NCBI GenBank assembly: GCA_013791905.1
Contig: VMSX01000029.1
Span: 186,001-250,000, forward strand
Source: Rhodocyclaceae bacterium
GTDB lineage: Bacteria > Pseudomonadota > Gammaproteobacteria > Burkholderiales > Rhodocyclaceae
Length of the DNA: 64,000 bases
Direction: 5' to 3'
Below are positions 10,935 through 27,890 of the stretch, piece by piece. A model generated the notes under the pieces. It was not told where the DNA came from and ran no database searches. It saw nothing but the letters and a program-made list of their open reading frames with translations. The position numbers were made by a program, and so were the translations under genes. Positions within the stretch are counted from its first letter, which is position 1. Every line of letters starts with the position of its first letter.

Positions 10935-11546
10935 TTAGGCGGGGACAGCTTCCTGCGCAGCGGCAGCACGGCCGGCGGCGAAGGCACTACGGTTCAGTTC
11001 GACAATCGCCACGCCCTTCTTGGCAAAGCGCGCCTCGATGCAGCGCAGCAGCACGTCGGCGGAAAACGGCAGGTGATCGGCGATGGCGCCGAGCATGACG
11101 GTGTTGCCCAGGCGCAGGTCGCCCAGGTCGCTGGCGATGGTGGCGGCATCGAAACTCACGGTGTGGATGCCGGCGGCGCGCATGTCGCCGATCGGATCGG
11201 CCGGATATTCGAACAGGCCGATCTCGACCACCGGCGGCACCAGCCGCGAGTCATTCACCAGCGCGAGGCCGTCCGGCCGCAGGTAGGCCGACCAGCGCAG
11301 CGCCTCGGCGGCTTCGAAGCCGAGCAGCACATGCACGGTGCCCGGCGCGATCTGCGGCGACAGCACCTTGGGGCCGAAACGGAGATGCGAGGTCACCACG
11401 CCGCCGCGCTGGGCCATGCCGGCCACTTCGGTCTTTTTCGCATCATGGCCTTCGGCGATGGCCGCCTCGGCGAGAATTTCGGTGGCGGTCATGACACCCT
11501 GGCCGCCAATGCCGCAGACGAGAATATTGGTAATGTTATTTTCCAT
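10935..11546 (-). CDS. iorB: indolepyruvate ferredoxin oxidoreductase subunit beta
   Basis: The 203-residue gamma/beta-type subunit of the 2-oxoacid:ferredoxin oxidoreductase family shows [37 protein letters not shown] and GNTVMLGAI. With IorA it oxidises indolepyruvate or other aryl pyruvates to aryl-acetyl-CoA. ATG 11546 ([10 protein letters not shown]) is supported by AAGGAACC upstream; an open extension to 11789 overlaps iorA and does not look real. It follows iorA by 20 bp. Confidence 0.9.
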
Positions 11547-11566
11547 GATGGGTTCCTTGGTCCGGA

Positions 11567-13438
11567 TTAGACCGGGCGCAACTTTGCCACGATGCGCGGC
11601 CCTGCGACCTGCACAATGGCATCCGGTGCGCAGGGCTTGAGGCACATCGCACAACCGGTGCACGCGATCGGGTCGATGCGCACGAAGGCTAGTTCGACCT
11701 CCTTGCCGGAGGGCTTGACCACCTTTTCGCGATGGGTGACGTGAATCGCCGGGCAGCCGACATCGATGCAGTTGCCGCAGCCGGTACATTTGTCATCATC
11801 GACGTGGTAGGCGCGCGCCGCCTTGAATTCGTCGGTGAGTACGCAGGGCCGGTAGGCGAGGATGACGGAAACTTCCTCGATCTTGGTTTCCTCGCGGATC
11901 ACCTTGAACAGGTTGGGCATCTCGTAGGGATCGACCTCGCGCACCCGTTCCGGTTTGACGCCGAGCGCCTCGACCAGCTTGCGGAAGTCGATGCGCGGCG
12001 CCGGGTTGCCACGGATGTCGAGGCCGTTGGCGGGGGTGTTTTGGCCGCCGGTCATGCCCACCGTGCCGTTGTCGAGCAGCAGGAAGGTGATATTGCTGTT
12101 GTTGTAGGTCGCGTCGAGCAGGCCCTGCATGCCCATGTGCATGAAGGTTGAATCGCCCATTACGGCGAGGATCTTCTTGTTCTTGTCGACCGCGCCGCGG
12201 CCCTTGTCCATGCCATGCGCCACCGTCACTGCCGCGCCCATGCAGATCGTCGTGTCGAGCGCATTCCAGGGGTGGCCGGCGCCCAGTGTGTAGCAGCCGA
12301 TGTCGCCGGCGACGATGATGTTTTTCAGCTGCGACAGCGTGTAGTAGATGCCCATGTGCGGGCAGGAGGCGCACAGCGTCGGCGGGCGCGGAAATACTGC
12401 CGGTGCGGCGACGGGCGGCGGGGGCGGTTCGTTGTTCAGCAGTCGGTTGATCGCCGGTGTCAGCACCTCGGGGGCCAGTTCGCCGATCTTCGGCAGGATG
12501 TCCTTGCCACGCACACTGAAACCGGCGGCGCGCAGTTCGTTTTCAACTACCGGTTCCACTTCCTCGACGACGACCAGCGTGTCGACCATGTCGGCCAGCG
12601 CGCGGACCTTCTCCAGCGGCAGGGGATGGCTCATGCCCAGCTTGAGCACCGGCGCATCCGGGAAGGCTTCGCGCACATGCATGTAGGCCGGCCCGCTGGT
12701 GACGAAGCCGACGCGGCGGTCCTTGCCCGGTTCAAGGATGTTTAGCGGAGAATGCTCGGACACCTCGCGCAACACCGCATCGCGCTCGAACATCAGCGGA
12801 ATGCGCCGCTTGGCGTGGGACGGCACCATCACCCAGCGCTCGGCGTTCTTGACGAAGCCGCTCGGCTCGTGCGGCACGCGCTCACCGACGGTGGCGACGC
12901 ACTTGACGTGACAGATGCGCGCCGTCAGGCGCAGGATCACGGGCACCTGATGTTGTTCCGACAGCTCGAATGCAGTGAGCACCATGTCATAGGCTTCCTG
13001 CGAATCCGCCGGCTCGAACACTGGCAGATGGGCGAAGCGGGCGTAGAAGCGCGAGTCCTGCTCGTTTTGCGAAGAGGCCATGCCGACATCGTCGGCGACG
13101 GCGATCACCATGCCGCCCACCACGCCGGTCAGCGTCAGCGTCATCAGGGGGTCGGCGGCGACGTTCAGGCCGACGTGCTTCATCGCGCAAAATGAGCGCG
13201 CGCCCATCATCGAGGCGCCCAGCGCAACTTCCATGGACACTTTTTCATTCACCGACCACTCGGTATAAATGTCCGGGTAGGTGCACAGGGCTTCGAGAAT
13301 TTCGGTCGAGGGCGTGCCGGGATAGGCAGCGGCAACCTTGCAGCCGGATTCCCAGACGGCGCGGGCGACGGCTTCGTTGCCGGAAAGAAGCAGCCGGGAC
13401 TGGCTCGGCGCGGGTGCAAGTGCTGCTACTGCTGCCAT
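11567..13438 (-). CDS. iorA: indolepyruvate ferredoxin oxidoreductase subunit alpha
   Basis: The 623-residue IorA carries a pyrimidine-binding domain at the N terminus (SGNEAVARAVWESGCKVAAAYPGTPSTE), a TPP-binding domain in the middle (CASCPHMGIYY, GDIGCYTLG, MGDSTFMHMGMQGLLD, LLDNGTVGMTGGQ) and two C-terminal [4Fe-4S] motifs (CTGCGNCIDVGCP and CTGCAMCLKPC). It converts aryl pyruvates to aryl-CoA with ferredoxin reduction. Operon with iorB. Together with korB at the window start it points to ferredoxin-linked 2-oxoacid oxidation. Confidence 0.95.
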   Translation of the reverse strand: MAAVAALAPAPSQSRLLLSGNEAVARAVWESGCKVAAAYPGTPSTEILEALCTYPDIYTEWSVNEKVSMEVALGASMMGARSFCAMKHVGLNVAADPLMTLTLTGVVGGMVIAVADDVGMASSQNEQDSRFYARFAHLPVFEPADSQEAYDMVLTAFELSEQHQVPVILRLTARICHVKCVATVGERVPHEPSGFVKNAERWVMVPSHAKRRIPLMFERDAVLREVSEHSPLNILEPGKDRRVGFVTSGPAYMHVREAFPDAPVLKLGMSHPLPLEKVRALADMVDTLVVVEEVEPVVENELRAAGFSVRGKDILPKIGELAPEVLTPAINRLLNNEPPPPPVAAPAVFPRPPTLCASCPHMGIYYTLSQLKNIIVAGDIGCYTLGAGHPWNALDTTICMGAAVTVAHGMDKGRGAVDKNKKILAVMGDSTFMHMGMQGLLDATYNNSNITFLLLDNGTVGMTGGQNTPANGLDIRGNPAPRIDFRKLVEALGVKPERVREVDPYEMPNLFKVIREETKIEEVSVILAYRPCVLTDEFKAARAYHVDDDKCTGCGNCIDVGCPAIHVTHREKVVKPSGKEVELAFVRIDPIACTGCAMCLKPCAPDAIVQVAGPRIVAKLRPV

Positions 13439-13965: not shown

Positions 13966-16887
13966 ATGAACTTCGCAAGACGGGCCGTAACCTTTCCATG
14001 CGCAATCCTTGCCGCGACAAGGGGGTTACTGACTGTCATTTTTCTCGCGTGGGCGTCCCTCGCCACCGCTGCTGCGCTTCCCGACACTGCTGAGATGGCC
14101 CGTTGGCTCGTCGGGATGAAGGCCGACCCCAGAGGCCCCTTCGACGGGATTTACTGGTTCTGCAAGGACGGTGCCGTGCTGCCCCCCGAAGCCTATGCCT
14201 GCGCGCCCCGTGGCGGCGGCATCCAGCATGGCAGGCTCGGGCTACGCGCCCGTGCCCTCCGCGAAGCCGGCTTCATGGTGGGCAATGTGCTGGCCGCCAC
14301 CGATCCCGAGGCCCTGGCCGCTACGCCGGGGCAAGCGGCGCTGAAGGCCATCCTGCTGGAACGTTATCTGGTGGCAGCGGACAACGGCTGGATACTGCGC
14401 CGGGCGCGCTACTACCGGGGGGCCTTCCAGGTGGAGGACGAGATTGCTGCCGCAGAGGCAATTCTGGCCGCTTTGGCTGCCCGCTCGCAGGGGGAGCGTG
14501 ACTTTCTATTGCTGCGCCAGGCGGCGCTGCTGCTGCCGCTGACGCGGAATGGCGCGACGGTGACACGCTCCCATGAAATCTCCTCCAGCCTCGCCACCCT
14601 GGATGCCGGTTTCGCATCGCTGCGCAACAAGCTCCACTCCCAGCCCGAGGCGGCCGACGCCGCGCGGGTGCGGGCCTATGCCCGCCAGCAAGGACGCAGC
14701 GAGCCCGAGTTCGAGCAGCTCGCCCAGGCCATCGACGCGCTCTTCACGATCCGCGACCTGAAACAGCCGCTGAATGAACTGGCCGCGCGCCTCGACAAAC
14801 ATCCCTTTGCCAGCCAGTTGCGGCGCTTTGCCCGGGAGCTTGAAGCCGCACTATCGCCCGCGCAGCGCTTCGCTGCCAGCGCAGCGTTCCTGGCCGAATT
14901 GCGCACGGCCCTGCCGGAATTGCCGCCGCAGCTGCGCGTGGCGGCAGTGAAGCTCAGTCTGGATGTCGAGGCCACAGCTTTCGCCACCGGCCGCGGCCTG
15001 CTCGCCGACCTGCCCCGGGCGCTCCCTGCCGAGCGGCTCGCCGTGCTGGGCAGTGCCGCCGAGGCCCTGTACGGCGTGGGCCTGCTCACCGCCCGGGAGC
15101 GTCAGGAGACACGGGAGTCGCTCGGTCGCCTGGCTGCGCCGAGCATTCCCCTGGAGCGTTACCGCGCGGAACTCGGCTACCTGGCACGGGTGCCCGCCTG
15201 GGCCGGACGGGAGCTTGCCTTCCACTTTGCCGCGGCGGTGACGGGACTGGCCCGCATCGAACCCCTGGCGAGCCAGTTCATCCCCGACCGCCTGCGGGCA
15301 AGCCCGCTGCTGATCTATTCGGCCTTGCTGGATGGTCTGCTGCAAGAGGCCAACAGCCAGGCCGGGATCGAGCACGAGGTCTTTGGCCAGGCGGTAGGGG
15401 CGGGGCTGCGCGCCCTCAATCCAGGCCTGGCCCGCGGCATCCTGCGCCTGGATGTCGCAAATCCCCGGCCGGACGGCATCTACCTGCTGCCCGAAACGAC
15501 AGAGCATCTCCCGCCCGTGGCCGGCATCCTCACTCTGGAGGCCGGCAACATCCTTTCCCATGTGCAACTGCTCGCCAGCAACCTCGGTATCCCCAATGTG
15601 GTGGTGGATGCCGGGCTGGTGCCGCGCCTGCGGGCGATGGCGGGGCGGTCCATCGTCATGGCGGTGAGCCCAGGCGGGCGGGTGCTGATCGCCGCGGACG
15701 GCCCGCGCTGGGAGGCGGTTTTCGGCCAGGCAGAGCGCGGCCAGGCCGAGCGGGCAGCGGAGCGCATTCACCCGAATCTCGCCAAGCTGGACCTCACGCG
15801 CCGCGATCCCATTCCCCTCGGCGAGTTGCGGGCGGACGACGCCGGGCGCATCGCCGGGCCGAAGGCAGCCCGGCTGGGCGAACTGAAGCACCACTACCCG
15901 GCGGCGGTGGCCGACGGCCTGGTGATTCCCTTCGGCGCCTTCCGTGCCTTCCTCGAACAGCCCATGCCGGGAACGGGGATGAGCGCCCATGCGTGGCTGC
16001 GCAGCGAATACCGCCGCATCGACGGCCTGCCCGTCCCGCAGCGGGAACTCGCGGCCAGGCAACTGCGGGAACGGCTGCGGAGCTGGATCGGCACGGCCGA
16101 TGCCGGGACGGAATTCCGCGCCGCCCTCGGTCGGGCCATGCAGGAGCGCTTCGGCCCGGACGGCAGCTATGCCGTCTTTGTGCGCAGCGACACCAATGTG
16201 GAGGATCTGCCCGGCTTCAGCGGGGCAGGACTCAACCTCACCGTGCCCAATGTGGCGGGCCTGGACGACGTGGTTGCGGCGATCCTGCGCGTGTGGGCCT
16301 CGCCCTTCGCGGAACGCGCCTTCGCCTGGCGGCAGATGCGCATGGACGCTCCCGAACACGTCTATGTTTCGGTGCTGCTGCAGCGCGCAGTGCCGGTGGA
16401 CAAGTCGGGGGTGATGGTGACCCTCGACCTGGAAAGCGGCAGCGCCGCTGGCTACACCGTCGCGGCGAACGAGGGCGTGGGCGGGGCCGTTTCCGGGCAG
16501 GCGGCGGAGGAACTCCTCATTGACGCAGCAACAGGTGAGGTGCGGCTGCTGGCCGAGGCTAGCGCCGCCACCCGGCGCATTCTGGGCCCTGATGGCGGCC
16601 TCGAACAGCGCGCGGTTTCTGGCCGGCCGGTGCTGGCGCCGGCCGAAATCGAACAGTTGCGGCGACTGGGCCGGGAACTGCCGGAGCGTTTTCCCCAGCG
16701 CGACGAAATAGGGCAGGGCGTCCCGGCGGACGTGGAATTCGGCTTCGTGGCGGGGCGCCTCGCGCTGTTCCAGATTCGCCCCTATCTGCAGAGCCGGCAG
16801 GCGCGCCGAGATCGTTTTCTGCTTGAGCTGGACGCGCCGCTGCGCAGCCAGACGGGGCGCATCGTCAAGCTGCGGGAGGACATGTGA
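13966..16887 (+). CDS. exported PEP synthase/dikinase-like protein
   Basis: The 973-residue protein has an N-terminal signal-like segment (positive start, hydrophobic core to about residue 30, then ATAAALP). A helical middle part has no clear domain. Near residue 525 comes a PEP-utilising mobile domain: AGNILSHVQLLASNLGIPN, with the phosphocarrier-type His532. A pyruvate-phosphate-dikinase ATP-binding domain follows (about 603-960): GPKAARLGEL, VFVRSDTNVEDLPGFSGAG and FGFVAGRLALFQIRPY. This order, His domain before ATP domain, matches glucan water dikinases more than PEP synthase. An exported ATP-using enzyme is odd because the periplasm lacks ATP. ATG 13966 is set by GGAGGAGTC. It overlaps the next gene by 1 bp. 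The substrate is unknown. Confidence 0.75.
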   Translation: MNFARRAVTFPCAILAATRGLLTVIFLAWASLATAAALPDTAEMARWLVGMKADPRGPFDGIYWFCKDGAVLPPEAYACAPRGGGIQHGRLGLRARALREAGFMVGNVLAATDPEALAATPGQAALKAILLERYLVAADNGWILRRARYYRGAFQVEDEIAAAEAILAALAARSQGERDFLLLRQAALLLPLTRNGATVTRSHEISSSLATLDAGFASLRNKLHSQPEAADAARVRAYARQQGRSEPEFEQLAQAIDALFTIRDLKQPLNELAARLDKHPFASQLRRFARELEAALSPAQRFAASAAFLAELRTALPELPPQLRVAAVKLSLDVEATAFATGRGLLADLPRALPAERLAVLGSAAEALYGVGLLTARERQETRESLGRLAAPSIPLERYRAELGYLARVPAWAGRELAFHFAAAVTGLARIEPLASQFIPDRLRASPLLIYSALLDGLLQEANSQAGIEHEVFGQAVGAGLRALNPGLARGILRLDVANPRPDGIYLLPETTEHLPPVAGILTLEAGNILSHVQLLASNLGIPNVVVDAGLVPRLRAMAGRSIVMAVSPGGRVLIAADGPRWEAVFGQAERGQAERAAERIHPNLAKLDLTRRDPIPLGELRADDAGRIAGPKAARLGELKHHYPAAVADGLVIPFGAFRAFLEQPMPGTGMSAHAWLRSEYRRIDGLPVPQRELAARQLRERLRSWIGTADAGTEFRAALGRAMQERFGPDGSYAVFVRSDTNVEDLPGFSGAGLNLTVPNVAGLDDVVAAILRVWASPFAERAFAWRQMRMDAPEHVYVSVLLQRAVPVDKSGVMVTLDLESGSAAGYTVAANEGVGGAVSGQAAEELLIDAATGEVRLLAEASAATRRILGPDGGLEQRAVSGRPVLAPAEIEQLRRLGRELPERFPQRDEIGQGVPADVEFGFVAGRLALFQIRPYLQSRQARRDRFLLELDAPLRSQTGRIVKLREDM

Positions 16888-19109
16888 TGCGTGGCCTGCT
16901 GCTGTTATTCCTGCTGCTGCCCGGCCTGGCCCTCGCCTATCCGCTGGATGGCCTGAACTACACCGGCATTGCCCGCCTCGAAGGCTACCGCTTGGCGCAA
17001 GAGGGCAAGGCCAGTAGCCGGGTGCAACCACCGGGCGGGCAGTTGGCGCTGCATCAGGTCGACCTGCGGCGCGCCGGCAGCCAGCTTGCACTGCCGGCGC
17101 CCGACGCGGAATTCAGCCGCCAGGTGGCGGACCTGCTGGGCGCGGAGGGCGACCGCTACGCGGTGGCCGTGCTGGACCTCAGCGACCCGGCGCGGCCAAT
17201 CTACGCGGAGCACCGCGCCGCAGTCCGCTTCAATCCGGGCAGCGTCGGCAAAATAGTGGTGGCCACGGCCCTGTTCCAACAGCTTGCCGATCTCTATCCC
17301 GACGACATTGTCGCCCGCGAGCGAATCCTGCGCGAAGCGCAGGTGGTCGCCGACAGCTTCATCGTCTCCGATAGCCACGTCGTCCCCTTCTGGGACGGCA
17401 GTCGCCTTGCTCACCGTCCCCTGCGCCAGGGGGATGCGGCGAGCTTGTGGACTTACCTCGACTGGATGATGTCGGCGAGTTCCAACGCCGCCGCCTCCAT
17501 GGTCATGCGCGAAACCCTGCTGCTGGCCGGTGCGGGCCGCGCTTACCCGCTGGACAAGGCGCAGATCGACGCCTTCTTCCGGACCAACTCGAAGACCGAT
17601 CTCTCGGCACTGCTGGTGCGGGCGCTGCAGGGCGGTATCGAGCGTAACGGCCTCGACCCGCAGGCCTTGCGGCAGGGCGGTTTTTTTACCCACACCGGCA
17701 AGGCCCGCGTGCCGGGCGGCGGCAGTTGGGCCACGCCACGTGAACTGATGCGCTGGCTGCTGGCGCTGGAGGAAGGGCGGATTGTCGATGCCTGGTCCAG
17801 TCGGGAGATCAAGCGCCTGCTGTACATGACCCAGCGCCGCATTCGCTACGCTTCAGCGCCTGCCCTCAACGACGCTGCCGTGTATTTCAAATCCGGTTCC
17901 CTGTTCCGCTGCCAGCCGGAGCCGGGCTTCGTCTGCCGCAAATATCAGGGCAACGTGGAGAACCTGCTGAACTCGGTGGCCATTGTCGAGCACCCGGCGG
18001 GCCAGCACCGGCTGCATTACATGGTGGTGATCAACTCGAACGTGCTGCGGGTGAACTCGGCGGTCGCCCACCAGACCCTGGGCACCCGCCTGCAGCGGCT
18101 ATTGGAAAAACGGCTATTGGAGAAACGCCACCAGGCTGCGCGGAGCGGTGTCGAACACGGCTTCGTCCAGCCTGACGATCAGGCGGCGCAGCCACTCGCC
18201 GCCCTGGGGATCCTCCGCCAGGGCCACGGCGATGTAGCGGCGGCCGTCGCGTTCGACGATGGCGCTGTCGGCATGCCAGTTGCGCCAGCTGCCGGACTTG
18301 CGGAAGATTTTCGAACCCGGACGCTCGGCCTCCAGGCCCTTGACGAATTTGTGGTGAATGCCGGGATCGCCGAGGATGGCCTTCATCTCGCCAGTCAGCT
18401 GGGGGGAAGCGAGCCGCCCGGTTTCCAGCAGGTAGTAGAAACGCGCCACCTGCAGGACCGTCGCCCCGTGCGAGAGGTTGTGCATGGGGTCGCGCAGGGT
18501 GTCGCCGCCTTTGCCGTAGGGCCGGCCCACCCAGAGGCCGCCATTGCGCTCGGGGTCGTACAGGCGGTAGCGGGGCGACTGCAGCAGTCCAGCCAGGTAG
18601 CGCATGCCGACCCGCTCCAGCATCTCGCTGGCGGCGGTGTTGGAAGAAACGCGGATCATCCGGGTGAGGGTGTCGCGAGTGGGCGCGTCGAGCTGCATGT
18701 CGCCAGCCTCGATGCGGGCGAAGGCACCGAGCAGGATGGCGATTTTGGGCAGGCTCGCGGCATAAGCCATGTGATCGGGGTTGAGGGCGGCAAAGCGGGG
18801 GCGGTCGGGCTCGGTGATGTCGACCAGGGCCACCGACAGGCGGCGCTCGCGCACCGCCGCGGCGAGGCCGAGCGATTCCAGCTTGAGTTCAAGTTGGGAT
18901 TGCAGACGATCATCGAAGGAACGTTCAAGCGCCGGGTAGGACTGGCCAGCGTGAATGGATATCGAAATCAGGATCAGGGTAAAGCTGAGGATCAGTCTTC
19001 TGAAGAACAAACTTTCTGGCCTCCCGGCTGGTTGCTGGCGTCTGACGTGACCCCAAAGAAATCCATGGGGAAGAGGCTCGATTACCCTCATTCCCGACAA
19101 GGCAAATAG
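16887..19109 (+). CDS. beta-lactamase-like serine hydrolase with read-through 3' end
   Basis: ATG 16887 shares its A with the dikinase TGA and follows GGGAGGA. Residues 1-17 (MRGLLLLFLLLPGLALA) form a signal peptide. The three active-site motifs of class A beta-lactamase/PBP-fold enzymes are present: SVGK (S-x-x-K) in NPGSVGKIVV, SSN (S-x-N) in MSASSNAAAS, and KSG in FKSGSLF. The enzyme-like part ends near 18125 in a doubled RLLEK. The frame then stays open for about 1 kb, antisense to the convergent hydrolase at 18114-19010, with no domain resemblance. Either a stop was lost or the tail is a sequencing or evolutionary artefact. Substrate is probably peptidoglycan-like or an ester; not known. 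Confidence 0.7.
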   Translation: MRGLLLLFLLLPGLALAYPLDGLNYTGIARLEGYRLAQEGKASSRVQPPGGQLALHQVDLRRAGSQLALPAPDAEFSRQVADLLGAEGDRYAVAVLDLSDPARPIYAEHRAAVRFNPGSVGKIVVATALFQQLADLYPDDIVARERILREAQVVADSFIVSDSHVVPFWDGSRLAHRPLRQGDAASLWTYLDWMMSASSNAAASMVMRETLLLAGAGRAYPLDKAQIDAFFRTNSKTDLSALLVRALQGGIERNGLDPQALRQGGFFTHTGKARVPGGGSWATPRELMRWLLALEEGRIVDAWSSREIKRLLYMTQRRIRYASAPALNDAAVYFKSGSLFRCQPEPGFVCRKYQGNVENLLNSVAIVEHPAGQHRLHYMVVINSNVLRVNSAVAHQTLGTRLQRLLEKRLLEKRHQAARSGVEHGFVQPDDQAAQPLAALGILRQGHGDVAAAVAFDDGAVGMPVAPAAGLAEDFRTRTLGLQALDEFVVNAGIAEDGLHLASQLGGSEPPGFQQVVETRHLQDRRPVREVVHGVAQGVAAFAVGPAHPEAAIALGVVQAVAGRLQQSSQVAHADPLQHLAGGGVGRNADHPGEGVASGRVELHVASLDAGEGTEQDGDFGQARGISHVIGVEGGKAGAVGLGDVDQGHRQAALAHRRGEAERFQLEFKLGLQTIIEGTFKRRVGLASVNGYRNQDQGKAEDQSSEEQTFWPPGWLLASDVTPKKSMGKRLDYPHSRQGK
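18096..18125 (+). repeat. 15-bp tandem duplication at a gene junction
   Basis: CGGCTATTGGAAAAA is followed by CGGCTATTGGAGAAA (one mismatch). It encodes RLLEK twice on the plus strand and contains the TAG stop of the minus-strand hydrolase at 18114-18116. It lies exactly where the plus-strand protein would be expected to end. Confidence 0.85.
18114..19010 (-). CDS. second beta-lactamase-like serine hydrolase
   Basis: The protein has the S-x-x-K motif in AASLPKIAIL, S-x-N in IRVSSNTAAS and KSG in FRKSGSWRNW, so it is a class-A-beta-lactamase-fold serine hydrolase. A TTG start at 19010 is chosen: GGGAGG at 19020-19025 stands 9 nt upstream, and translation then begins with a clean signal peptide (FFRRLILSFTLILISISIHA). 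An ATG at 19091 is the conventional alternative but adds a hydrophilic stretch before the signal. It is convergent with, and wholly overlapped by, the extended frame of the first hydrolase, and divergent from the transporter at 19116. Likely periplasmic. Confidence 0.75.
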   Translation of the reverse strand: MFFRRLILSFTLILISISIHAGQSYPALERSFDDRLQSQLELKLESLGLAAAVRERRLSVALVDITEPDRPRFAALNPDHMAYAASLPKIAILLGAFARIEAGDMQLDAPTRDTLTRMIRVSSNTAASEMLERVGMRYLAGLLQSPRYRLYDPERNGGLWVGRPYGKGGDTLRDPMHNLSHGATVLQVARFYYLLETGRLASPQLTGEMKAILGDPGIHHKFVKGLEAERPGSKIFRKSGSWRNWHADSAIVERDGRRYIAVALAEDPQGGEWLRRLIVRLDEAVFDTAPRSLVAFLQ

Positions 19110-19115
19110 CCGACT

Positions 19116-20405
19116 ATGACCGACGATCTGCAAAAAAGTTCCCCAAAATTTGGCCAGGCTCATGGGGCATTCTTGAGGTCGCTGGTGTTCCTGCTGGATT
19201 TCTTCCTCATCATTACCGCCCTTTACCAGCTGAAACCGGCCAGCCGTTCGTTGCTTATCGAGGCCCACGGTGCCGAGTCACTCCCGTATGTCTGGATCGG
19301 CTCCGCAGTCGCCTTGTTGATCGCCATCGCAGTGTACCGGAAGATCCTCGAGCGGTTTGGCCGGGTGCGCGTCGTCCTGCTGAGTTGCCTGTTTTTTGTC
19401 GGCGTCCTGGTTGCCTTCAGGATACTGTCCGCCACGCATGCATCCTGGGTGGCGGTGCCCTTCTATATCTTCGTGGACATTTTCGGTGTCGTGCTGGTTG
19501 AGCAGTTCTGGAGCCTCGCCGACAGCAGCTACCGTACGGAAGATGGCCGGCGCTGGTACGGCCTGGTCGGCACCGGCGGGCTGGTGGGCGGGGTCTTCGG
19601 CAGCCTCGTGGCGACGCTGCTGCTCAGCTATACCCCCTTGCAGACTCCCGACCTCATGCTGGTGGCCGCCGCTTTCGTCGGCCTCATCTTCGTCCTCACC
19701 TGGGCCATGGACCGCTGGGGATGGCTGAGCCGGACGGGGGAAGACGCATCACCTGCAATCCTTGTAGCGAAGGCGGGCGGCTGGCGGCTGATCGCCGGCA
19801 ACCGCTATCTGGTGCTGATCGCTTTCGCCCTGCTCCTGGCCCAGGCCATCTCTCCCCTGGTGGAATACCAGTTCCTGCGCATCATCGAGGTAGCCTATCC
19901 GGAGCGGGAGGCACGCACCGTCGCGCTCTCACTCTTCTTCAGCGTCATGGGCGGCGTCTCGATCGCCGTGAACCTGGTGCTCACTCCCCTGATCCTCGGC
20001 TACCTGGGCGTGCTCGCCGGGTTGCTGGTGCAACCCGTGGTGCTGGCCCTGGCCACTGGCGGCTTCATGTTCCAGCCGGCCTTCATCACGGCAGCCATCA
20101 TGAAGATCAGCGACCGCGGCCTGTCCTATTCCATCAACCGCGCCGCCAAGGAACTGCTCTACATCCCGGTCGAACCCCAGCTCATGTACCAGGCCAAGGC
20201 CTGGATCGACATGTTCGGTTACCGCCTGTTCAAGGCCCTGGGCTCCCTGATCATCATTGCCCTCACCCACTGGTCCCTGGTCGGTGAAGGGGTGGCCGAC
20301 CTCGGTTGGGTGACCCTGTTGGGTTGCGTCGTCTGGGCCTGGGTTCTGGTGACACTGCATCGGCAGTATCTGGTTCTTGTGAATCCGAAAGACCGCACAG
20401 GATAG
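19116..20405 (+). CDS. Npt1/Npt2-type nucleotide transporter-like MFS protein
   Basis: The 429-residue protein has about twelve membrane helices. ALYQLKPASRSLLIEAHG near the N terminus and SDRGLSYSINRAAKELLYIP plus YQAKAWIDMFGYRLFKALGS in the C-terminal half resemble the ATP/ADP translocase-like Npt family found in free-living bacteria, a relative of the chlamydial and rickettsial nucleotide carriers. Energy-parasitism is not implied; the substrate in free-living hosts is unknown. It is the last gene of the dikinase/serine-hydrolase cluster, and the inverted long repeat starts 6 bp behind its stop. Confidence 0.75.
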   Translation: MTDDLQKSSPKFGQAHGAFLRSLVFLLDFFLIITALYQLKPASRSLLIEAHGAESLPYVWIGSAVALLIAIAVYRKILERFGRVRVVLLSCLFFVGVLVAFRILSATHASWVAVPFYIFVDIFGVVLVEQFWSLADSSYRTEDGRRWYGLVGTGGLVGGVFGSLVATLLLSYTPLQTPDLMLVAAAFVGLIFVLTWAMDRWGWLSRTGEDASPAILVAKAGGWRLIAGNRYLVLIAFALLLAQAISPLVEYQFLRIIEVAYPEREARTVALSLFFSVMGGVSIAVNLVLTPLILGYLGVLAGLLVQPVVLALATGGFMFQPAFITAAIMKISDRGLSYSINRAAKELLYIPVEPQLMYQAKAWIDMFGYRLFKALGSLIIIALTHWSLVGEGVADLGWVTLLGCVVWAWVLVTLHRQYLVLVNPKDRTG

Positions 20406-27008: not shown

Positions 27009-27890
27009 ATGATCACACTACGCTCAATCGCCGCCATGGGAACCAGCCTCCTGCTTGCATTGAGTGCTGGATCCGTGTTCGCCGTCCCTTTCACACCGGT
27101 TCTCGATGAATTCAGGATCACGAAAGACGGTCGCGAGATATTCCACGATTCATTCACAGACGGTGTTGTCCCGCCAAGCGGCCCCGACGGTCAGACAACA
27201 TACTTTGGAGTGGGATTTGCCGGTATGACCAGTGAGTCCGGGGGCTCGCTGACGATGACGCCCTCCCTAGGTGATCCCACGGGACTCGTCGGAACCTTCG
27301 CCGAGCGTTCGACCGTGGCGTCCAGATTGCTGTCAACCAATCCTGTCAATTCCAATTTCCTGGGAGTTGATAGTTATTTCTCCATCCATGGGCTATTCGA
27401 CATGTCGAACCTTCCCATGGTCACGGGGCAAAGCTTCGGCATTCGTGCAACGGATCGGGCGCTCGGAATTGGCAACGAGGGTGACGACACCTATGTGCTG
27501 TTTGTTGGTATGAATCTGGACTCGGAGATTGTTGTCGCCTTGCGTCACGTGAATATGGGCACGGATGTGAGTACGCTTCTCGACTCGGTTTCCATCCAGT
27601 CCCTCCTGCCTAATGCCGGCAAAATCGAGCTGATTTTGTACAAGCAAGCCGGTGCCAGCAATCTTCTGACGTGGTACCAAGTCTACGACAACAGCGTCGC
27701 CCCAAGTGTATTAAGCGCCGGTTCGATCGGGTCGGAATTGACACTCGGTATCTATTCGGGCGAGGACTATATCCGAGGGGGGTTCCAGTCGACAGACGTT
27801 GTTCCTGTCCCGGAACCGGCTACTCTGGCTTTGTTCTGCCTGGGTGTTGCGGGTATCTATCTTGTACGCAGGCGCAGAATGATTGCCTGA
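27009..27890 (+). CDS. PEP-CTERM sorting domain protein
   Basis: The 293-residue secreted protein has a signal peptide (to about residue 25, SAGSVFA) and the C-terminal sorting signal VPVPEPATLALFCLGVAG followed by YLVRRRR, i.e. VPEP motif, membrane helix and basic tail. Such proteins are cut and anchored or released by an exosortase in exopolysaccharide producers. The body is rich in Ser/Gly/Asp beta strands with no known catalytic domain. Ribosome site GGGGAGAC. Followed by a strong terminator, so monocistronic. No exosortase in this window. Confidence 0.9.
   Translation: MITLRSIAAMGTSLLLALSAGSVFAVPFTPVLDEFRITKDGREIFHDSFTDGVVPPSGPDGQTTYFGVGFAGMTSESGGSLTMTPSLGDPTGLVGTFAERSTVASRLLSTNPVNSNFLGVDSYFSIHGLFDMSNLPMVTGQSFGIRATDRALGIGNEGDDTYVLFVGMNLDSEIVVALRHVNMGTDVSTLLDSVSIQSLLPNAGKIELILYKQAGASNLLTWYQVYDNSVAPSVLSAGSIGSELTLGIYSGEDYIRGGFQSTDVVPVPEPATLALFCLGVAGIYLVRRRRMIA

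Follow-up and report, generated by a model that had tools for sequence, protein, structure and literature searches.

In glucan water dikinase (GWD) and in PWD, the histidine domain precedes the ATP domain. GWD transfers the beta-phosphate of ATP to its histidine and then to the acceptor, and the gamma-phosphate to water, as stated in an excerpt of the cited report (PMC7569903). The dikinases RPH (rifampin phosphotransferase), HpeHI and PpsAB combine an ATP-grasp domain with a swivel domain that contains an invariant histidine, and for RPH the excerpted publication gives an order with the ATP domain first and the histidine last (PMC4844700). In the same excerpt, the exchange K22A abolished RPH activity and the variants R117A and T136V lost drug phosphorylation, but E297A retained activity (PMC4844700). 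Two further families are of importance here, the NTT/TLC carriers (PF03219) and the class-A-type hydrolases of the family PF13354.

Relatives of all these proteins are encoded side by side in the window, i.e. the whole analyzed stretch of 64,000 nucleotides from a Rhodocyclaceae bacterium. The set comprises the genes of DIK, an exported dikinase, of the exported serine hydrolases SH1 and SH2, and of NPT, an NTT-type transporter. All four open reading frames of an earlier note, which had been made from the DNA letters only, are present where that note placed them. DIK is encoded on the plus strand (13966..16887) and has 973 residues, with a putative signal peptide (residues 1-37, 13966..14076, cleavage site approximate), an N-domain that presumably binds the acceptor (residues 38-469, 14077..15372), a phosphohistidine swivel domain with the presumed catalytic His532 (codon 15559..15561), and an ATP-grasp domain (PPDK_N; residues 629-946, 15850..16803). 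SH1 follows on the same strand (core 16887..18101), its start lying within the DIK stop codon, and its frame reads on (18102..19109) in register and antisense to SH2, which is encoded convergently on the minus strand (18114..19010). Between SH2 and NPT, which start divergently, lies a gap of 105 nt (19011..19115); its length depends on the putative TTG start of SH2 at 19010, which was the choice of the earlier note. NPT (19116..20405, plus strand) has 429 residues. Between 13400 and 21000, no structured RNA was detected at gathering score, and promoter and terminator scans yielded no more than shuffled sequences. None of the four proteins has a PADLOC match at E 0.01, and a defence system was rejected on that ground.

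DIK has the ATP-grasp domain, the swivel histidine and the ATP-site Lys, Arg, Thr and Glu that mark the PEPS/PPDK/RPH superfamily, and the architecture that had been read from the letters, a hydrophobic N-terminus followed by a histidine domain and a PPDK-type ATP domain, is borne out. PF01326 (PPDK_N) matches residues 629-946 with E 4e-32, and residues 507-546 resemble PEP-utilizers (PF00391, E 0.0014) with 18.6 bits, which is below the Pfam cut-off of 23.1. His532 is part of a G-rich S-H motif that aligns with the histidine domains of PEP synthase and RPH at low score, and it is present in all 75 DIK sequences covering this position. The ATP-site residues are K633 (78/78) and R740, T759, E924, Q936 and R938 (79/79 each), whose equivalence to RPH residues is a reading of alignments and, for the lysine, of the motif. 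The claim of intact catalytic residues is thereby upheld throughout the family, as no covering sequence lacks His532 or the ATP-site residues. The invariance of E924 is nevertheless weak evidence, because RPH E297A kept its activity. Structurally, the ATP domain matches that of RPH (5hv1; Foldseek E 2.6e-13; VIA Z 34.7, 311 aligned residues, 2.1 A). With the whole DIK model, most VIA rows at Z 9.4-11.0 belong to ATP-grasp enzymes such as D-Ala-D-Ala ligases, which we take as a likely reflection of the common ATP-grasp fold.

The domain order of DIK, with N-domain, histidine and ATP domain, differs from that of RPH and agrees with that of GWD and PWD. The parallel to glucan water dikinases that had been drawn earlier thus holds for the order of domains only; among solved structures, RPH, PEP synthase and HpeI have the ATP domains closest to that of DIK. 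Unlike GWD and PWD, DIK is bacterial and exported, and no gene family beyond the set recurs beside it. It differs from RPH, HpeHI and PpsAB by its export, by its linkage to SH1, SH2 and an NTT, and by an acceptor domain without confident match. An ordinary PEP synthase or PPDK was also considered and rejected, as Pfam detects only the ATP and histidine domains in DIK, the first 432 residues of the mature protein match no Pfam family, and the 14 matching NCBIfam models reach 14.5-109.9 bits at cut-offs of 501-1700.

The AF2 model of the N-domain (mean pLDDT 90.9) is mainly helical with a strand pair close to its start, and no PDB entry matches at E<=0.001 when it is searched alone. In VIA, it ranks highest with helical bundles (TTYH, PilJ, McpS) at Z 8.4-11.1 over mostly 89-95 residues, an arrangement that the tool classes as common. 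The acceptor domains of RPH, PEP synthase and PPDK are absent from the best 50 VIA rows, which excludes nothing. In Pfam scans of 62 N-domains, only matches with E 0.01-0.1 were obtained, each in one or two members, and no carbohydrate-binding module was seen, although CBM45 may lack a Pfam model. As to export, 69 of the 74 family members with readable N-terminus have signal-peptide-like sequences according to a home-made hydropathy rule that 134 of 836 further ORFs, genuine and shadow ones together, pass as well; five members fail it, and nine DIK ORFs without readable N-terminus were left out of the count. Cys66 and Cys79 are invariant (75/75 each), and 48 of 62 mature proteins contain exactly two cysteines. 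The N-termini and the two-cysteine pattern together support the claimed export, and DIK is therefore probably located outside of the cytoplasm.

Both hydrolases score above the PF13354 cut-off of 22 bits (SH1 41.2, SH2 66.9) and possess signal-peptide-like N-termini by the same rule. The three active-site motifs of the family are complete, as had been noted, and are highly conserved. In SH1 they are S119-x-x-K122, S198-x-N200 and K335-S-G337 (S119, K122, S198 and N200 in 73/73; K335 and G337 in 71/71; S336 in 69/71), accompanied by Cys342 (70/70) and Cys350 (69/70). In SH2 they are S86-x-x-K89, S122-x-N124 and K238-S-G240 (S86 in 67/67; K89 in 68/68; S122 in 69/69; N124 in 68/69; K238, S239 and G240 in 69/69 each). 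In class A beta-lactamases, the general base Glu166 follows the serine of the SxN motif by about 36 residues. At this spacing, which was applied without an aligned class A reference, no column is at least half E/D, neither in the 73 rows of SH1 nor in the 69 of SH2. Because this conserved acidic residue is not seen, beta-lactamase should not be used as a function label for SH1 and SH2. PF13354 as a whole is common (8/14 control genomes), whereas SH1- and SH2-like sequences are confined to the DIK genomes of the draw described below.

The SH1 frame had been given as 16887-19109. Its start is borne out, but the C-terminal part beyond about 18101 is not, and SH1 comprises about 405-415 residues rather than 741. 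In each of seven comparisons with the window, differences at third codon positions of SH2, which coincide with first positions of the extended SH1 frame, are 2.3 to 4.6 times as frequent as those at positions 1 or 2; five of the seven genomes also have the read-on. Nothing in this substitution pattern indicates that the extension is maintained as protein, and a functional fusion was rejected.

NPT had been described as a nucleotide-type transporter, and it is indeed recognized by PF03219 (59.5 bits, cut-off 21). Sequence searches of the PDB gave two matches, 9j3n (E 3e-07) and 9j3j (E 0.0015), both named ADP,ATP carrier protein 1. Plant NTT1 mutants indicate that transport requires four charged residues, two lysines and two glutamates. 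Close NPT members retain E250 and K361 (28/28 each) and have one Glu replaced by Asp (D121, 28/28), and the alignment is ambiguous for the first transport lysine near K40. While NTT carriers as such are not specific for the set, the close NPT subfamily occurs in 8 of 200 genomes of the phylum, all of them DIK-positive, and lies on a different contig from DIK in four of the eight. NPT relatives of any degree (E<=1e-6) are found in 16/18 DIK genomes and 20/182 others (tallied from a table), which implies that the family has other uses as well. PF03219 was detected in 0/14 control genomes. An NTT does not accompany every DIK: none is in reach in 11 of 37 loci, and PF03219 was missing from 4 of 14 genomes searched for NTTs, all four being MAGs, although the profile also overlooks two NTT-like neighbours.

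A second NTT lineage also occurs at DIK loci. In a quick tree of 70 rows, with frames picked by profile score and locus L138 left out, a single clade of all near-DIK NTTs was rejected (p-AU 0.0019), but the p-values of such clade tests are soft, because the second group was set apart only with the first tree already at hand and because some branches are long. The close NPTs and the Halieaceae-type NTTs possibly form one clade (support 94.6, not starred), and we therefore claim two lineages and not three. Apart from these, there are long NTTs of 730-1058 residues. An association of the set with nucleotide-type transporters, as suspected earlier, is thus borne out for two NTT lineages.

The block of DIK, SH1, SH2 and NTT is a real module. 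Neighbourhoods of DIK were surveyed at 83 places, from which those with too little flank were dropped (7 for SH1, 23 for SH2, 46 for NTT). SH1 is the immediate downstream neighbour of DIK at 73 of 76 loci, 45 of these with a 4-nt overlap. Unrelated neighbourhoods would have spoken against a system; the three loci without SH1 in this place are L027, where SH1 is 5 kb away, L062 and L067. SH2 is found within 5 kb downstream in 49/60 loci, 48 of them convergent, and an NTT between -8 and +6 kb in 26/37. All four genes occur together in 24 of 37 loci, the three enzymes in 31. In one draw of 200 genomes of the phylum, DIK is present in 18, SH1 in the identical 18, and SH2 in 17 of these and in 0/182 others; the exception is G069, where no match to SH2 accompanies DIK and SH1. 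Fourteen of the 18 genomes belong to one genus. Counted by genus, among 110 genera, DIK occurs in 5, SH1 in 5 and SH2 in 4, with chance values of 8e-9 and 9e-7 if kinship is ignored. Fifteen of 15 further DIK genomes contain SH2, including 6/6 without SH2 within 5 kb downstream of DIK. Cultured environmental hosts of the set include Hydrocarboniphaga effusa AP103 (L043) and Parahaliea aestuarii (L038). Linkage and co-occurrence thus support the view of the earlier note that this is one system, and its overall interpretation is supported in part, with respect to unity, export, catalytic residues and transporter association.

The SH2 match of G214 carries one internal stop, the NTT at L025 and SH2 at L051 are apparently truncated or frameshifted, and at L059 DIK is split over two ORFs. 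Three MAGs carry a second DIK copy whose available flank contains no SH1 (L067, L062, and L021 with a flank of only 438 nt).

What could such a module do? We consider an extracytoplasmic phosphorylation module, with DIK as AMP-forming phosphotransferase, the hydrolases SH1 and SH2, and ATP delivered by the NTT, a reading that we believe about as much as we doubt it. DIK would be secreted, fold outside of the cytoplasm and form one disulfide. Its ATP-grasp domain would transfer the beta-phosphate of ATP to His532 and release AMP and Pi, a chemistry suggested by the family, and the swivel domain would then move the phosphate to an acceptor gripped by the N-terminal helical domain. SH1 and SH2, as exported acyl-serine enzymes, may prepare the acceptor or process the product. 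NPT, as NTT-family carrier of the inner membrane, could move ATP outward against AMP or ADP, as its homology suggests. As to the acceptor, a part of the envelope, for instance a peptidoglycan fragment, is our leading but weak guess; it is based on the PF13354 fold and on the presence of a transglycosylase gene close to DIK in three loci. The more specific idea of a dedicated extracytoplasmic ATP economy, in which the NTT exports ATP, the secreted dikinase with its new acceptor domain phosphorylates an envelope component and the two acyl-serine enzymes process it, is tentative, and we would sooner doubt than adopt it.

What alternatives exist? DIK could phosphorylate a small molecule in the periplasm, either an antibiotic or an aromatic compound that is toxic or serves as nutrient, comparable to RPH and HpeHI, with the hydrolases cleaving an ester or amide of it, and the kinship of its ATP domain to RPH, PEP synthase and HpeI agrees with such an inactivation or scavenging. 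This is unlikely, as no match at E 1e-30 was found among 72,556 plasmid records, on which ground a plasmid-borne set was rejected, and as catabolic or resistance clusters are expected to show partners, whereas every additional gene family was seen in eight of the surveyed loci at most (the recurring families 2, 5, 6 and 7 are shadow ORFs, judged by position and strand only). Quite improbable is an NPT that imports the phosphorylated product or released nucleotides while DIK uses surrounding ATP. Extracellular ATP is scarce, and the nesting of the close NPT within DIK genomes together with the second NTT lineage fits a cosubstrate supply at least as well, although no NTT is in reach in 11 of the 37 loci, and although transporters of NAD and of purines are also among the known NTTs and sequence does not give the direction, according to an excerpt of a study on these carriers (PMC5381601). 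That DIK and SH1 alone form an operon beside functionally unrelated SH2 and NTT genes, as the opposite strand of SH2 and the sometimes missing or distant NTT might suggest, is very improbable in view of the co-occurrence of SH2 with DIK, also where it is not nearby, and of the confinement of the close NPT clade to DIK genomes in the draw.

No description of the gene set was found in the open-access literature searched; among the matches listed, for the set as well as for ATP use outside the cytoplasm, none deals with it as far as titles and the beginnings of abstracts tell. The periplasm is taught to be an ATP-free space, and to our knowledge no earlier bacterial system supplies phosphohistidine-relay chemistry beyond the cytoplasm with ATP of its own, so that the present one, if the ATP-economy reading is true, would be the first of that sort. 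Functionally characterized NTTs come from parasites or organelles, as stated in the excerpted study (PMC5381601), and the set therefore offers a candidate role for the NTT genes of free-living bacteria. Its N-domain, some 430 residues long, has no confident counterpart in the Pfam and PDB searches, and a search for the kinase acceptor can be combined with one for the substrate of the two hydrolase families. Found in environmental bacteria, the set would thus be a concrete and testable case of ATP-driven chemistry in the periplasm.

The four genes that the earlier note had assigned to one system lie in the window where it had placed them. DIK, the exported dikinase (13966-16887, plus strand), comprises 973 amino acids with a hydrophobic N-terminus, and in Pfam scans the PPDK_N domain stands out clearly (residues 629-946) and the region around His532 matches PEP-utilizers weakly. 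Its stop codon contains the start of SH1 (16887 onward, plus strand). SH1 and SH2 (18114-19010, minus strand) are serine hydrolases of PF13354, and NPT (19116-20405, plus strand) is a transporter of PF03219, all above curated cut-offs and of the families that had been proposed. Upstream, at 10935-13438 (minus strand), there is a 2-oxoacid ferredoxin oxidoreductase gene pair (POR_N, TPP and POR domains), probably of the indolepyruvate type, and 27009-27890 encodes a PEP-CTERM protein (PF07589) for which no link with the module was seen.

The block is almost certainly a real exported module. A species-genome collection was scanned with short peptide patterns, a method that detects close relatives only, and this gave 65 loci (best-segment identity 42-92%), whose source records are labelled mainly Beta- and Gammaproteobacteria, Deltaproteobacteria/Desulfobacterota and Nitrospirae. 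Together with the window and 17 other DIK genomes of a 200-genome draw, this made a survey of 83 places. The places are not independent, some being close relatives. Where the flank was long enough to judge, SH1 lies directly 3' of DIK on the same strand in 73/76 (with a 4-nt overlap in 45), SH2 lies within 5 kb downstream in 49/60 (convergent in 48), and a member of the wider nucleotide-carrier family (NTT) lies between -8 and +6 kb in 26/37, which supports the claim of one system. All four genes occur together in 24/37 places and the three enzymes in 31/37, and no other family recurred in more than 8 loci when apparent shadow ORFs of module genes were set aside.

Three MAGs contain second DIK copies, two of them without SH1 in the available flank (L067, L062) and one with too short a flank (L021); the same MAGs carry DIK next to SH1 on other contigs (L051, L015, L011). 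L067 and L021 share upstream genes for a double HAD protein, an unknown protein and an MsrB-like (SelR) protein. One genus carries an additional SH2 at 2-4 kb 3' of DIK, either past the NPT gene (L086, L088, L092) or in tandem with the first (L091, L097, L098). In one genome DIK is split into two ORFs (L059, 7944-10378), by a frameshift or an assembly error.

In one single draw of 200 genomes of the phylum, DIK (E<=1e-20) was found in 18 and SH1 (E<=1e-6) in exactly those 18, while SH2 was found in 17 of them (absent from G069) and in 0/182 others; the DIK N-domain searched alone also matched only in the 18. As one genus contributes 14 of these, we recounted by genus, which leaves DIK in 5, SH1 in 5 and SH2 in 4 of 110, and the chance of such nesting, with the tree ignored, is 8e-9 and 9e-7. 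SH2 was found in all of 15 further DIK genomes, including six in which the 5 kb downstream of DIK contain no SH2 (L020, L031, L035, L039, L043, L044); the copy in the L020 genome (G214) has one internal stop.

The SH1 ORF extends to 19109 because the frame antisense to and in register with SH2 is stop-free. This read-on (18102-19109, plus strand, about 335 codons) is common to L004, L007, L048, L059 and L066 and therefore is not a sequencing error of the window. Third positions of SH2 are free to vary within it (71 changes in the comparison with L007, versus 21 at first and 23 at second positions), and the functional end of SH1 is therefore probably near 18101. Thus the ORF 16887-19109 stands as such, but there is no sign of protein constraint past about 18101, and a functional SH1 up to 19109 does not hold; in this group the SH1 gene seems to have no dedicated stop codon.

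Export of DIK, which homologues without signal peptide would have called into question, is borne out by a home-made rule applied to readable N-termini, which was passed by 69/74 DIK, 69/73 SH1 and 59/68 SH2 proteins, compared with 134/836 control ORFs. Of 62 mature DIK proteins, which are over 900 residues long, 48 contain exactly two cysteines, 12 contain three and 2 contain four; Cys66 and Cys79 are invariant in 75 sequences, and SH1 keeps its own pair. These features give DIK and SH1 the look of exported disulfide proteins, a location predicted from sequence, and DIK is rather likely to act outside the cytoplasm.

The presumed catalytic His532 and the ATP-binding residues, the loss of which would have spoken against the proposal, are invariant among covering sequences (H532 75/75; K633 78/78; R740, T759, E924, Q936 and R938 79/79). 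In an AlphaFold model of mature DIK (mean pLDDT 91.9), the ATP domain matches rifampin phosphotransferase (RPH, 5hv1; Foldseek E 2.6e-13; Z 34.7, 2.1 A over 311 residues), and also PEP synthase (2ols) and HpeI (9goj). RPH converts ATP and rifampin to AMP, Pi and phospho-rifampin; its K22A mutant has no activity, R117A and T136V do not phosphorylate the drug, and E297A is without effect (PMC4844700). HpeI is the ATP part of the two-component dikinase HpeHI, in which the His is essential (PMC12167813). By analogy with this family chemistry, AMP-forming phosphotransfer via a phosphohistidine would be expected for DIK. The N-domain (residues 38-469), folded alone, gave a pLDDT of 90.9; the model has no PDB match at E<=0.001, and Pfam gave nothing better than hits at E 0.01-0.1, each confined to one or two members.

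Some observations speak against the mechanism proposed at the end of this text. These include the second DIK copies that have no SH1 in the available flank and the lack of an SH2 match in G069. In addition, an NTT is not always at the locus, and relatives also occur in genomes without DIK: at E<=1e-6 they are present in 36/200, i.e. 16/18 with DIK and 20/182 without, a tally in which one genus weighs heavily, and a DIK-negative member of that genus (G040) has a distant relative. The close subfamily (E <1e-100; next best 4e-28) occurs in 8/200 genomes, all DIK-positive, and is on a different contig from DIK in four (G029, G076, G108, G140; long contigs in G029 and G108). PF03219 was found in 0/14 control genomes. 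Where the available DIK flank contains no NTT (14 genomes), a PF03219 match turns up elsewhere in 10; it adjoins SH2 on the same contig in G202 and G205. Close NPT members retain K40 (27/27) and D121, E250, K361, D365 and R370 (28/28 each).

In 15 loci the NTT falls outside the window's clade; of 8 scanned, 6 exceed the PF03219 cut-off, one has a weak MFS match only (L023) and one has none (L037). A single clade of all NTTs near DIK was rejected (p-AU 0.0019), as was a clade joining the window's with an 11-member group (p-AU 0.0018); the remaining 4 could be part of the window's clade. The DIK locus has thus acquired NTTs of at least two lineages, and this speaks for a shared role more strongly than a single inherited neighbour would. 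Near the module, long NTT proteins of 730-1070 aa are encoded in L023 (1391-4507), L027 (6669-8894), L032 (2-3178), L063 (14973-17165) and G202 (contig 21). Those scanned from L027 and L063 are above the PF03219 cut-off, have weak HEAT-repeat matches below cut-off, and recall the NTT-HEAT fusions described in PMC5381601. Another NTT relative, with 27% identity to NPT, is encoded some 5.6 kb ahead of the window (G000 contig 1, 179199-180371, minus strand).

Among the matches listed in the open-access literature, we found no description of this gene set. An acceptor of peptidoglycan type appears rather unlikely; the hint for it comes from the PF13354 fold and from transglycosylase genes near DIK, namely a PF00912 gene beside DIK in L067 (10700-11566, minus strand) and similar sequences within 8 kb in L062 (7839-8612, minus strand) and L097 (3795-4502). 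ATP supply by NPT is a tentative assignment, at slightly below even chances. As a whole, the most likely scheme is that NPT would export ATP and take up AMP or ADP, that DIK would form phospho-His532 and then phosphorylate an acceptor held by its N-domain, and that SH1 and SH2 would act on the same material.
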